Assembly: GCF_002218195.1 (NCBI RefSeq)
Contig: NZ_CP022336.1
Span: 1,240,001-1,304,000, forward strand
Origin: Sphingorhabdus sp. SMR4y
Lineage (GTDB): Bacteria; Pseudomonadota; Alphaproteobacteria; Sphingomonadales; Sphingomonadaceae
DNA: 64,000 nt
Reading direction: 5' to 3'
A program made the position numbers and the translations under genes. A model generated the notes under the pieces. That model saw only the letters and a list, made by a program, of their open reading frames with translations, did no database searches and was not told the DNA's origin. This document shows positions 2,688 to 52,535 of this stretch, piece after piece; position 1 is the stretch's first letter; each line of letters starts with the position of its first letter.

Positions 2688-4625
2688 CTAAGCATGAAAA
2701 TAGTCGTAAATTTTCTGCGCCACGGTCGCCGACACGCCCGGCGCGCCCTGCAGGTCGTCGAGCGAGGCATTTTTCACCGCTCGCGCCGTGCCAAAATGCA
2801 GCAGCAGCGCCTTTTTCCGGGCCGGACCGATTCCGGGCACGTCATCCAGCGAGCTATGGCCGACGGCCTTGGCGCGCCGGGTCCGGTGCGCGCCGATGGC
2901 GAACCGATGGGCCTCGTCGCGAAGCCGCTGGAGATAGAAGAGCACCGGGCTGTTCATCGGCAGGTTGATCTGGCGGCCGTCGGGCAAATGGAATGTCTCG
3001 CGCCCGGCATTGCGATCCGGGCCTTTCGAGACACCAATCATGACCACATCTTCGACGCCAATTTCCGCCAGAGCTTCACGGGCAGCGCTCATCTGGCCCT
3101 TGCCACCGTCGATCAGCACCAAATCGGGCCATTCGCCCTTGTCGCGGTCCGGATCCTCCTTTTGCGCGCGGGAAAAACGCCGTTCGAGCACTTCGCGCAT
3201 CATCGCAAAATCGTCACCCGGTGCGATATCGGGATTTTTGATGTTGAACTTGCGATAGGCGTTTTTGCGGAAGCCCTCAGGTCCGGCGACAACCATCCCG
3301 CCGACCATATTCGTTCCCTGGATATGGCTGTTATCGTAGATTTCGATGCGGTCGGGCACCGCCTCCAGTTCCAGCAGCTCAACCATCTCGCGCATGATCT
3401 TGGCCTGCGTGGACGTTTCCGCGAGGCGTCGGGACAGCGCTTCCTCGGCATTGCGGCTGGCCTGTGCGAGTAATTTTCGACGATCCCCGCGCTGCGGCCT
3501 GGAAACGCTCACCTTATAATCCGCCTTGGTGCTCAGCGCCTCGGCCAACAGCTCCGCATCCGGCAATTCGCGGTCCAGCAGCACCAGCTTGGGTGGCGGC
3601 ATCTGCTCATAAAATTGCATCAGGAAGCTGGAAAAGACCTCGTCAATTGCGACATTGCTGGTGTGGGCGGGAAAGAAGCTGCGGTGTCCCCAGTTCTGGC
3701 CGCCCCGAATGAAAAAAGCCTGGATGCAGACGCTGGACCCTTCCGACGCCAATGCAAAAATATCCGAGTCCGGCAGCCCCTGCGCGTTGATCGCCTGGCT
3801 GCCCTGGATGAAGGTCAGCGCCTTCAGCCGGTCCCGGTAGACCGCCGCCATTTCGAAATCGAGCGCATCAGAGGCTTTTTCCATCGCCTCGCCCAGCTTG
3901 TTCTGCACCGCTGTCGATTTGCCGGACAGGAAATCCCGCGCATCCTCGACCAGTTCGGCATAATCCTGCTTGTCGATCCGGTCGACACAGGGCGCCGAGC
4001 AACGCTTGATTTGATAGAGCAGACAGGGCCGCGACCGGTTGTTGAAGAAACTGTCGGTGCAACTGCGCAACAGAAAAAGTTTCTGCAGTGCGTTGATCGT
4101 CCGGTTCACCGAACCGGCGCTGGCAAAGGGGCCGAAATATTGCCCCTTGGCCCGCTGCGCGCCGCGATGTTTGGTGATGCGGGGAAAATCATGATCCTCG
4201 CGCAGCAGGATGAACGGAAAGCTCTTATCATCGCGCAACAGCACATTATAGGCTGGACGAAACTTCTTGATCAGCTGCGCTTCGAGCAACAAGGCCTCTG
4301 CCTCGCTGCCGGTGGTGACGATGGTCATCGAACGGGTCTGCGCGACCATACGCATCAGTCGCTGCGGCAGCCGGTTCATCTGCACATAGGCCCCGACGCG
4401 CGCCTTGAGCGAGCGCGCCTTGCCGACATAGAGCACGTCACCGCGCTTGTCCTGCATCCGGTAAACGCCCGGCCTTGTCGGCAGGGTATTCAGAACCTCG
4501 CGGATTGCCGCCATGCCCGCTTCAAGGTCGGGCGTATCCCCTTCGCCGCGCACGGCATAGGTTGCCTTGTCCTCGTTGAACCGGGACGCGGCATTGGGTT
4601 GGTCGGGACGGTCGGCTTTGGACAT
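2688..4625 (-). CDS. uvrC: Excinuclease ABC subunit C
   Basis: UvrC makes both incisions around a lesion during nucleotide excision repair with UvrA and UvrB. At 645 residues the protein is full length. Domains in order: GIY-YIG endonuclease (about 46-130; PGVYRMQ with YVGKARSLKARVGAYV), four cysteines at 189, 201, 209 and 213 whose spacing matches the 4Fe-4S cluster of E. coli UvrC, a UVR motif (about 240-272) that binds UvrB, the RNase H-like 5' nuclease domain (EIYDNSHIQGTNMVGGMVV), and a C-terminal helix-hairpin-helix pair (591-645). The start follows the best ATG; about 35 residues precede the domain proper. Confidence 0.97.
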   Translation of the reverse strand: MSKADRPDQPNAASRFNEDKATYAVRGEGDTPDLEAGMAAIREVLNTLPTRPGVYRMQDKRGDVLYVGKARSLKARVGAYVQMNRLPQRLMRMVAQTRSMTIVTTGSEAEALLLEAQLIKKFRPAYNVLLRDDKSFPFILLREDHDFPRITKHRGAQRAKGQYFGPFASAGSVNRTINALQKLFLLRSCTDSFFNNRSRPCLLYQIKRCSAPCVDRIDKQDYAELVEDARDFLSGKSTAVQNKLGEAMEKASDALDFEMAAVYRDRLKALTFIQGSQAINAQGLPDSDIFALASEGSSVCIQAFFIRGGQNWGHRSFFPAHTSNVAIDEVFSSFLMQFYEQMPPPKLVLLDRELPDAELLAEALSTKADYKVSVSRPQRGDRRKLLAQASRNAEEALSRRLAETSTQAKIMREMVELLELEAVPDRIEIYDNSHIQGTNMVGGMVVAGPEGFRKNAYRKFNIKNPDIAPGDDFAMMREVLERRFSRAQKEDPDRDKGEWPDLVLIDGGKGQMSAAREALAEIGVEDVVMIGVSKGPDRNAGRETFHLPDGRQINLPMNSPVLFYLQRLRDEAHRFAIGAHRTRRAKAVGHSSLDDVPGIGPARKKALLLHFGTARAVKNASLDDLQGAPGVSATVAQKIYDYFHA

Positions 4626-50053: not shown

Positions 50054-51022
50054 TCAGGGAGCCGTCTGATCCAACCTGTCTTTTCGGACATTCACCCGGA
50101 CCGAGAACCGGTCCCCGACCAGCGGATCCATGAAGCGCTGGTCCCTGACAATGGCCTCGGCTTGATCCCGCTCAACGACGGGCATCCGCGACCAGAACAG
50201 GAAAGCCGCGGCGTCATCGCTGGCGGTTGCCAGCTCGGGAAGCAGCGCCCGGCCGGGTTCGGCCATGGCCTGTTTTTCATCGAGAATCAGTCCAGCAAAC
50301 AGATCATAAGCACCTGATCCATATGCAGAATGATTCCGCCACAGCATCTCGCGCTTCCAGAACTGAAGCGGCACCGGGTTGGCCACCACCATATTCGCTT
50401 CGCCCTGAGCAGCATCGTGCGCGAGCATCGCCTTGGTCTCCGCTTCCGCCTTGCCGGTGATCACGCCATTGGCGAAAATATAAGCGCAGACGGCAGCAAA
50501 GCTGATCCACGCGGGTCGTTGCCAGTTGTCCGCCCCCTTTTTCTCCCGTCGCCGCGAAACCCAGAGGCCAGCGATCATCGCCGCCCAGATCCAGAGATCG
50601 ATGATGAAGATGCTGTCACCGTAAAACCATTGCGATGAAAAGGGCTCGAGCAGGCGAATGCCATAGCTGTTCAGCCAGTCCAGCGCCGGATGGCTCAGGC
50701 ACCCGATATAGGCCAGCGCCAGCAACCAGCCCTTGTGGATCGGCAACCGGTCCGCAGGCCGTTTCCCACGCTTTTCCTGCCAGCGATCGAACCATATCAT
50801 GATCCCGGTCAGCACCATCGGCAACAGCAGCATCGCAATCGGCCCGTGGGTGATCCCCCGCCGGATCGCCAGATGCTGCACGCCGCCGAGCAAGGTCGCA
50901 ACCGCATCGATATCGGGAATATTGGCGGCAATGATCAAAGTCGCCATGCCGAGGCCGGTTTTCTGTTTCAGACCCATCTGGCCGAGAACAGCGCCCGCTA
51001 GGCTATGGGTTAGATTATCCAA
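50054..51022 (-). CDS. YdjM-like inner-membrane metal-dependent hydrolase (DUF457)
   Basis: A 322-residue membrane protein. N-terminal DNLTHSLAGAVLGQMGL, the metal-type aspartates and histidines NIPDIDAV and RRGITHGPIAM, and IGCLSHPALDWLNSYGIRLL are hallmarks of the YdjM/DUF457 family. Four or so membrane segments follow in the middle. YdjM of E. coli is induced in the SOS response; here the gene precedes photolyase, consistent with a damage-linked role, but its reaction is unknown. Confidence 0.85.
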   Translation of the reverse strand: MDNLTHSLAGAVLGQMGLKQKTGLGMATLIIAANIPDIDAVATLLGGVQHLAIRRGITHGPIAMLLLPMVLTGIMIWFDRWQEKRGKRPADRLPIHKGWLLALAYIGCLSHPALDWLNSYGIRLLEPFSSQWFYGDSIFIIDLWIWAAMIAGLWVSRRREKKGADNWQRPAWISFAAVCAYIFANGVITGKAEAETKAMLAHDAAQGEANMVVANPVPLQFWKREMLWRNHSAYGSGAYDLFAGLILDEKQAMAEPGRALLPELATASDDAAAFLFWSRMPVVERDQAEAIVRDQRFMDPLVGDRFSVRVNVRKDRLDQTAP

Positions 51023-51029
51023 ATTTTAT

Positions 51030-51493
51030 CTCGCACGAAGCCACGAAGGCACAAAGAACTTGCATTGCCTAGCCTCGGAAATAGTTATTTGCCAGACGTT
51101 TGACACCTTCTTTGAAAGTGGCTGCGCCAAAATTCATCAGGAAACCCAATGGCAAATCCATCAGTCGCAAATAAGTTAACAGTTGTTTTGCATGAACAGG
51201 CGAGTGCCGTTCGGTAGACTTCAACTCTATCAGCAGTCGCTTTTCGACGATGAGGTCCGCACGAAACGCATCGTCCAAAACCCGGCCCTTAAACGTAACA
51301 GGTATGATCTTCTGCCTTTCGACAAAAAGCCCCCTGTCCTTCAGGCTTTCGAAAAGCAAAACTTCATAGACGGATTCGAGGAGTCCCGGCCCAATATCCC
51401 TGTGCAGGTGAAACCCGCAATCAACAGATATTTTCGCGATTTCCTCAAGACTTGGCACGCTCTCATCTTAGTGCCTTCGTGCCTTCGTGCGAG
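51030..51493. mobile_element. Inverted-repeat-bracketed cassette holding a GxxExxY gene
   Basis: A 23-bp inverted repeat brackets the gene: 51030-51052 and 51471-51493 are complementary with a single mismatch. Each arm is itself a tandem of GCACGAAG units. The left arm is 8 bases from the YdjM-like start and the right arm 10 bases from the korB stop. The DNA between is AT-richer than both neighbours. No transposase is present and no target-site duplication could be confirmed, so mobility is inferred. Confidence 0.6.
51069..51458 (-). CDS. GxxExxY protein (PD-(D/E)xK nuclease-like)
   Basis: A 129-residue protein with the name-giving G25-LL-E28-SV-Y31 motif in DIGPGLLESVYEVLL. A nuclease-type D68-x9-E78-x-K80 array follows in FRADLIVEKRLLIELKS, the PD-(D/E)xK core. 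The C-terminal half has HAKQLLTYLRLMDLPLGFLM, and NFGA. The family is widespread in environmental bacteria and its function is not established. The gene lies inside a pair of 23-bp inverted repeats. Confidence 0.88.
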   Translation of the reverse strand: MPSLEEIAKISVDCGFHLHRDIGPGLLESVYEVLLFESLKDRGLFVERQKIIPVTFKGRVLDDAFRADLIVEKRLLIELKSTERHSPVHAKQLLTYLRLMDLPLGFLMNFGAATFKEGVKRLANNYFRG

Positions 51494-51503
51494 CCAAAAA
51501 TCT

Positions 51504-52535
51504 TTACAGTTCCGGCCCACCCTCAGTCACCGTCCAGGTCTGCCCCTTGCTCAGCAAAGCCTGCAGATCCGGCTTCTTGCCAGCTGCCGCAGCCTCGTTC
51601 TGCGCGACCACAGCCGATTCAAATGTCGGCCGCGGATCGTCATAGAGCACGCCCAGAGCCATCGGAAATTCACCGAATTGCATTTCGATCAGCATATGCG
51701 CCACCGACCGGTTGGTGACATCATGAACGATCACGTCGGCCGCCTGCCAGTCGCCGTCGACCACGTCGACGACTTCCAGCTGCAGCGTCTTGCGATTGAG
51801 CGTGATGCCCTTGGTGCCCTTGCCGAACAGCATCGGTTCGCCGTCGACCAGATGCAGTTGCGTATCGGCAGCGGTTTTCTTCGCCGCAAATTCCTCGAAC
51901 ACGTCCTTGTTATAGACGATGCAATTCTGGAAAATTTCGATGAAGGACGTGCCCTTGTGCGCGTGCGCCGCTTTCAGAACGTCGGGCAGTCCCTTGTGAA
52001 CATCGATGCCGCGCGCAACAAAGCGCGCACCGGCGCCCAAAGCAAAGGCACAGGGCGAAGCGGGCCGGTCGACCGAACCATAAGGCGTCGAGGGACTCTG
52101 CGTACCCTGACGGCTGGTCGGCGAATATTGCCCCTTGGTCAGCCCGTAAATCTCGTTGTTGAACAGCATCACCTGGCAATCGAGATTGCGGCGCAGCAAG
52201 TGCATCGTGTGGTTGCCGCCGATCGACAGCGCGTCGCCGTCGCCGGTGATGATCCACACGTCGAGCTCCGGATTGGCCAGCTTGACGCCGGTCGCCACAG
52301 CCGGCGCGCGACCATGGATCGTGTGGAAGCCGTAAGTTTCCATATAATAAGGAAAGCGCGAGGAGCAGCCGATACCGCTGACAAAGACCGTCTTGGACGG
52401 ATCAGCCCCCAGATCGGGCATCGTGCGCTGTACCGCCTTCAAAATGGCGTAATCGCCACATCCGGGGCACCAGCGGACTTCCTGATCGGTTTCCCAGTCT
52501 TTCAGCGTGGTCGTGATTTTTGTCATCTCGTTCAT
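51504..52535 (-). CDS. korB: 2-oxoacid:ferredoxin oxidoreductase, beta subunit
   Basis: TPP-binding half of a 2-oxoglutarate-type ferredoxin oxidoreductase. The protein has 343 residues. The single 4Fe-4S ligand set is C23 and C26 (WCPGCGDY), C57 (GIGCSSRFP) and C205 (FQNCIVYN). The TPP motif is GDGDALSIGGNHTMHLL (98 onward). It overlaps korA by 4 bases. The two-subunit form is the oxygen-tolerant type found in aerobes, where it may act in the TCA cycle; 2-oxoglutarate specificity is inferred from the family. Confidence 0.93.
   Translation of the reverse strand: MNEMTKITTTLKDWETDQEVRWCPGCGDYAILKAVQRTMPDLGADPSKTVFVSGIGCSSRFPYYMETYGFHTIHGRAPAVATGVKLANPELDVWIITGDGDALSIGGNHTMHLLRRNLDCQVMLFNNEIYGLTKGQYSPTSRQGTQSPSTPYGSVDRPASPCAFALGAGARFVARGIDVHKGLPDVLKAAHAHKGTSFIEIFQNCIVYNKDVFEEFAAKKTAADTQLHLVDGEPMLFGKGTKGITLNRKTLQLEVVDVVDGDWQAADVIVHDVTNRSVAHMLIEMQFGEFPMALGVLYDDPRPTFESAVVAQNEAAAAGKKPDLQALLSKGQTWTVTEGGPEL

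Follow-up and report, generated by a model that had tools for sequence, protein, structure and literature searches.

The question raised by this locus is why a single GxxExxY gene in the chromosome of Sphingorhabdus sp. SMR4y is enclosed by inverted repeats of its own, and what the encoded protein might have to do with them. To our knowledge, the genes of this family occur in many phyla and have no known function. In the window, the 64-kb stretch of DNA analysed here, the full inverted repeat comprises 34 nt per side (88% complementary), with the left arm at 51024-51057 on the plus strand and the right arm at 51466-51499 on the minus strand. Its 23-bp cores (51030-51052 and 51471-51493), described in the first-pass annotation as inverted copies with one mismatch made of tandem units, indeed differ by exactly 1 base, and each arm consists of three 7-base words which follow each other every 8 bp and read inward. 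From outer to inner, these are CACGAAG, CACGAAG and CACAAAG in the left arm (51034-51040, 51042-51048 and 51050-51056, plus strand) and CACGAAG, CACGAAG and CACTAAG in the right arm (51483-51489, 51475-51481 and 51467-51473, minus strand), so that the element holds 4 of the 7 CACGAAG words found in the window on both strands together. The further description of the cassette was equally accurate: exactly one gene lies between the arms (51069-51458, minus strand, 129 aa, GTG start), the interior is AT-richer (GC 47%, versus 60% and 59% in the genes on either side), and only 7 and 10 bp separate the 23-bp arms from, respectively, the gene of a YdjM-family membrane protein (50054-51022, minus strand; PF04307) and a korB-like gene for a 2-oxoacid oxidoreductase beta subunit (51504-52535, minus strand; 250 bits with TIGR02177, slightly below the cut-off of 261.9). 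These two neighbours lie outside the element and serve as junction markers below.

We consider it on balance probable that the locus belongs to a system which resembles that of REPINs and RAYTs and has at its centre a minimal RecB/Cas4-like nuclease, which binds the arms and probably drives their dispersal. This system would be widespread and consist of two parts, the locus being one of its gene-bearing copies. The first part would be a GxxExxY nuclease gene with an inverted arm at either end, in which two to four 7-base words (C-R-C-N-R-A-G, or with T, A or C as the last base) stand in tandem at intervals of 8-11 bp, and the second part would be short palindromes elsewhere in the chromosome, which have similar arms and no gene. 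The words would be recognition sites, arranged in a row, to which the protein binds, a palindrome cut or processed by the protein may become copied into gene junctions, and the copies can decay through internal deletion. Such a system would be an analogue of the RAYT tyrosine transposase and its REPINs, with an unrelated enzyme.

By profile the window protein is a GxxExxY family member (120.5 bits with TIGR04256, cut-off 35; 119.2 bits with PF13366, cut-off 22), and among the Pfam and NCBIfam profiles nothing beyond these two matched it, in particular no HUH tyrosine transposase. The D-x9-E-x-K nuclease array noticed earlier is present, and in an alignment of 16 sequences D63, E73 and Y91 are invariant and K75 and Q87 nearly so; Q87 and Y91 fall on the positions of a Q-x3-Y motif, which we take to be a mark of the RecB family. 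A structure model made for a relative's protein, L096, and not for the window's own (mean pLDDT 96.2), has Cas4 as its top fold matches in the PDB by Foldseek (4r5q and 4ic1, with E values between 1.9e-3 and 5.8e-3 and a query-based TM of at most 0.56), followed by lambda exonuclease, with no PDB match at E < 0.001. While the D, E-x-K and Q-x3-Y positions resemble those of Cas4 and RecB nucleases, the 118-residue core is without conserved cysteines and the match to the Cas4 sequence profile is weak (E 0.027), as is the match to RTasPDDEXK (E 0.0031), these two being the only matches among the defence profiles. A sequence search of the PDB gave no match below E 0.33. Fold and motifs suggest that the GxxExxY protein is a minimal RecB/Cas4-like PD-(D/E)XK nuclease, with nuclease activity predicted.

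The arms are not a peculiarity of the window. The gene is found over the cut-off in 57 of 299 genomes spread over the phylum, and when the highest-scoring ungapped inverted repeat up to 200 bp from the match was taken as the arms, 124 of 160 GxxExxY genes reached the threshold of 14, versus 3 of 270 control windows situated 400-800 bp further out; 36 of the 160 genes are without arms at this threshold. The armed genes comprise 24 of 30 loci in the genus, 24 of 30 in the phylum, 61 of 80 on the contigs of named genomes (the best 80 of 573 relatives) and 15 of 20 further loci. From the phylum-wide matches 30 loci and 20 fetched later were scored and the rest left out, as were 4 of the 35 genus matches, which had no locus, and L056, which lies at a contig end. 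Among the loci of the protein tree, armed genes are found in at least 14 phyla, one of these phyla being archaeal and represented by one metagenome contig, with binning errors possible. The commonest words at the 100 armed loci outside the genus are CACAGAG (33), CGCAGAG (28), CGCAAAG (22) and CACGAAG (16), with the consensus CRCNRAG, mostly TTMAC ahead of the first word and typically three words per arm every 8-11 bp. Three words in both arms are present in 53 of 105 parsed elements, the unit spacing is 9 in 147 cases, 8 in 108, 10 in 98 and 11 in 24, and both sides have the same spacing in 155 of 169 comparisons. At 77 of these 100 loci the words read forward when followed inward, at 8 in reverse and at 17 neither way, two loci being counted both ways. 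On plasmids the gene is rare (8, 8 and 7 matches for three queries in 72,556 records, all predicted non-mobilizable) and one query found none in 50,697 phage records. Beyond shared operons, no recurrent partner gene was seen, the largest cluster (uvrA-like by eye) accounting for 7 of 100 loci.

As all of these elements are palindromic and the listed ones intergenic, the arms might be RNA or DNA hairpins such as terminators, kept by selection on base pairing with the gene incidental. This is highly improbable: agreement between the two arms is 0.60 in the spacers versus 0.90, 0.88 and 0.96 at word positions 2, 5 and 7 and 0.75 at word position 4, even though the arms had been selected for complementarity, a hairpin has no need of tandem spacing, and arms of this design enclose the same gene family in no fewer than 14 phyla.

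What the arms have to do with the protein is indicated by the words themselves. When loci were labelled by the word ending, 94 of the 111 labelled loci, with 5 genus rows kept, entered a protein tree, 84 with -AG words and 10 with -AT, -AA or -AC words. On this tree the word class changes twice, versus a mean of 9.7 in shuffled labels (none of 500 shuffles was as low), and a branch with support 96/96 sets 9 of the 10 non-AG loci apart from the rest, L124 being the exception; the tree is built from few columns, with unsettled bootstrap and some long branches (L241, L245). In L096 numbering the clades are told apart by three positions, with L versus F at 21, S versus mostly K at 24 and R versus other residues at 61. 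The two classes coexist, with different words, within single genomes, in G056 (L231 versus L103 and L232) and in G060 (L244 versus L245), and a gene-sized element scan blind to the protein retrieved at L155 a second gene of the GFLEK type with CACGAAT arms. At L155 the two-class GxxExxY genes with their own arm words, at about 202-552 and 3490-4185, lie within 4.5 kb.

A further search, in which 16 loci were read, 12 of them new (L418, L420, L427 and L432 were already known), followed the same rule. The new GFLEK-type loci L411, L412, L413, L415 and L419 all have -AT words, L411 and L412 being near relatives, and the new GLLES-type loci L421, L422 and L430 all have -AG words. The rule holds in 8 of 8 clean new loci and in 10 of 10 with two less clean ones, both -AT, namely L416, which has the motif FVEK and a repeat score of 11, and L417, a match without the motif; at L423 and L425 no words are readable by the rule. 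That the protein recognises its own arms is, judged from these sequences, well supported; the co-variation of word and clade is the main evidence for such putative arm reading and rests on about two evolutionary changes.

The first-pass annotation had suggested a non-autonomous mobile unit without transposase, whose nuclease perhaps acts on the repeats. The latter idea is supported in so far as the type of nuclease goes with the repeat word; the former is not the best reading, as the word tracks the GxxExxY clade and the nuclease is thus the likeliest dedicated enzyme. The contrary view, that the gene is the cargo of MITE-like elements with words read and moved by another transposase, draws on the small size of the gene, on the fact that MITEs usually use a foreign transposase, and on a gene-sized arm pair at L123 which by eye encloses a restriction-modification gene fragment. 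We give it only a slight chance, since the word class follows the GxxExxY tree and since the only two gene-sized armed elements in 400 kb of G056 both carry GxxExxY genes, as does one further gene-sized element, that in L155, from the same scan. The other 9 of the 12 rows of the scan consist of separate palindromes with ordinary genes between them, of the fragment in L123, or of sequence without a clear ORF; read at the ORF level, the scan yielded no clean case of other cargo in the same arms besides this one fragment.

Three arm types occur in the genus, A (CTCGCACGAAG..., the type of the window), B (TCACGCGAAG...) and C (CACGCGAAGGACGCTAAGATT...), and 25 of 32 genus genomes have a GxxExxY match, 24 of them over the cut-off. 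In the genome of the window itself, a single contig of 3.48 Mb, there is another GxxExxY gene, whose arms are made of a variant word, together with at least eight short gene-less palindromes of either word type. At L005, L016 and L019 a CCGCGCCAGCGG-like hairpin adjoins three of the eight listed palindromes, at L019 with a T run, perhaps as a terminator.

Generic arms scattered without the gene had been named in the first-pass annotation as an argument against a mobile unit. Short gene-less palindromes are indeed dispersed locally, but scattered type-A arms are nearly confined to genomes with the gene or its remnant: type-A arm sequences have 124 matches in the 14 genomes with a type-A gene or remnant versus 3 in the other 18 genus genomes, the counts including the gene's own arms and the 14 including G015 (a partial match at a contig end). 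Only the gene's own two arms, with no scattered type-A copies, are found in G003. Of the 32 genomes, 8 contain type-C arm sequences, and exactly these 8 have a type-C-armed gene, an association which is partly circular because most matches are the gene's own arms and of which the informative part is the 24 genomes without any type-C arm sequence. As the genomes are related, the arm counts in the genus represent an association and not independent events. In G026 (C3:381547-382252) a type-C gene has a small palindrome on either side, in a REPtron-like manner.

The 0.87 Mb around the 160 genes contain 30 short palindromes with such arms away from the gene versus 0 in the reversed sequence, and 400 kb of one genome contain 8 gene-less palindromes versus 0 and 93 single arms versus 19. 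In the 57 gene-positive genomes 380 CACGAAG pairs were counted (mean 6.7, own arms included) versus 113 in the 242 gene-negative genomes (mean 0.47; p 3e-16), and the contrast persists inside the dominant family (7.6 versus 1.5, p 3.5e-4) and outside it (3.1 versus 0.33, p 0.006). Counting against the reading preferred here, 14 of the 242 gene-negative genomes have at least 3 such pairs. Dispersed gene-less inverted pairs and a gene flanked by its own repeats are found in the same genome, the combination by which REPIN/RAYT systems are delimited.

The history of the window copy can be followed at the korB-ydjM junction in the 30 genus genomes in which a korB-like gene was located. Eleven have the gene at this junction, two (G009 and G012) have lost the gene by deletion and kept its arms, and the other 17 lack both; the copy of G008 has a shortened start. 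An empty junction in relatives had been proposed as a sign of mobility, and in three of these 17, G005, G007 and G026, the junction is empty, with 6 bp from the korB-like stop to the ydjM start. The companion expectation, that gene-bearing copies with these arms would occupy varying loci in the genus, failed for type A: all 11 type-A gene loci adjoin korB, with the position of L056, at a contig end, relative to korB not judgeable. The window copy is therefore most simply regarded as inherited, most likely an old, vertically kept member of the system with no recent jump.

At a hisB-hisH-like junction (by eye), aligned in 15 of 20 relatives, 8 genomes have a type-B palindrome and the 7 others no element; the short junction of G019 resembles by eye one copy of an approximately 16-bp sequence which flanks the element on both sides in the filled genomes. 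Among relatives, the type-B gene occurs on either side of one and the same neighbour, and at two other junctions relatives have unrelated repeat families at the same place. Near C1:2449190 and C1:2452945 of G000 (loci L361-L380), relatives have CTGAACTTGTTTCAG-like and CTGAGCTTGTCGAAG-like palindromes instead of the word palindrome, and these junctions are a hot spot at which repeat families turn over.

Flanks of 40, 100 and 300 bp, compared for 120 elements, revealed no constant short target duplication. Long flanking duplications are present at L002 (62 nt), L099 (61 nt), L113 (30 nt) and L171 (66 nt, repeat-rich); L113 is a relative of L099 at the same site, and the 61-62 nt duplications stand at two independent sites, of which that of L002 is complex among relatives. 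A duplication score of at least 20 is reached by 4 of 120 elements versus 0 of 1000, and a score of 14 by 5 of 120 versus 4 of 1000. At L002 (1388-1449 and 2012-2073 region) and L099, unrelated copies lie between direct duplications of a neighbouring gene's end or start. Outside the genus, 60 of 79 elements lie between co-directional genes (versus 98 of 198 for other genes at these loci, p 5e-5), because of which the gene may rely on read-through; the median distances are 6 and 14 bp. In the genus only 3 of 14 elements were placed between co-directional genes, by a simple ORF caller misled by long antisense ORFs.

These observations bear on a third explanation, namely that recognition occurs without mobility, the words being operator or processing sites which control the gene's own and other operons, and gene-less copies arising via recombination or slippage. 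Binding alone would suffice for the co-variation of word and clade, no transposition event was observed, the window gene is vertically kept, and outside the genus gene and arms are often located inside operons. On the other hand, junctions at korB and the hisB-hisH-like site are found both empty and filled, gene-less copies of one type occupy many places of gene-carrying genomes, and the type-B gene changes sides of its neighbour. We hold this explanation to be unlikely, if by no means negligible, and prefer an active dispersal system, in which movement would be brought about by the GxxExxY enzyme.

The closest analogue is the REPIN-RAYT system (REPtrons; TnpA-REP), which has in common with the present elements a single chromosomal gene, flanks of palindromic repeats and many gene-less copies, as well as rarity on plasmids and, here, absence from the phages searched. 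Passages in two papers describe the RAYT phylogeny as largely congruent with that of the species (PMC3116915, PMC3733652). While RAYTs are HUH tyrosine transposases and REPs are GTAG-tagged, here the enzyme belongs to the PD-(D/E)XK family and the arms are rows of 7-base words; by eye, no GTAG tag is seen at the ends of the listed arms and palindromes. As in MITEs, the gene-less elements share terminal inverted repeats with a gene-bearing one, but a constant short target duplication and a recognised transposase are absent, the ends contain tandem words and, by eye, the gene-less copies are mostly unlike deletion derivatives, with the exception of G009 and G012. Rpn proteins share the PD-(D/E)XK fold. 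Rpn/YhgA-like nucleases (PF04754), as far as excerpts of the papers tell, were once linked to DNA mobilisation (PMC5350276, PMC10327210), with later work placing Rpn in toxin-antitoxin phage defence; they constitute another family, and flanking word repeats are not described in the abstracts.

In the open-licence literature no description of the repeats was found, and one may exist in subscription journals and most preprints, which lie outside that scope. Partial text of one paper has GxxExxY as an annotation near a reverse transcriptase (PMC8934634) and that of another mentions it also (PMC12085832); within the same literature, the family identifiers led to no relevant paper as far as the matching text goes (PMC9756366), and eighteen repeat strings led only to an apparently unrelated eDNA paper (PMC8438044). 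The more general proposition, that GxxExxY proteins are the dedicated enzymes of a hitherto unrecognised class of dispersed prokaryotic repeats, in which a lone minimal PD-(D/E)XK nuclease of the RecB/Cas4-like kind would read the rows of 7-base words at either end of an element and spread copies with and without the gene into gene junctions, by a recognition code that pairs the GxxExxY motif itself with the last bases of the word (GLLES with -AG, GFLEK with -AT), seems to us evenly poised. Through the link to a repeat class, the family acquires a biochemical role that can be tested, many palindromes of the CACGAAG, CACAGAG and CGCAGAG kind have a possible source, and the rule connecting word and protein type is a ready mutational test of DNA recognition. 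If the nuclease disperses the repeats, a Cas4-related fold would represent a second, independent route to the outcome known from RAYTs and REPINs.

Two further repeats came to light beside these elements. In G099 (C34:4008-4520), a genome without a GxxExxY match, word pairs stand in a tandem array with a period of 165-168 bp. At L002, about 2630-2700, lies a separate high-copy dispersed repeat of the genus, with many matches in the searched genomes.
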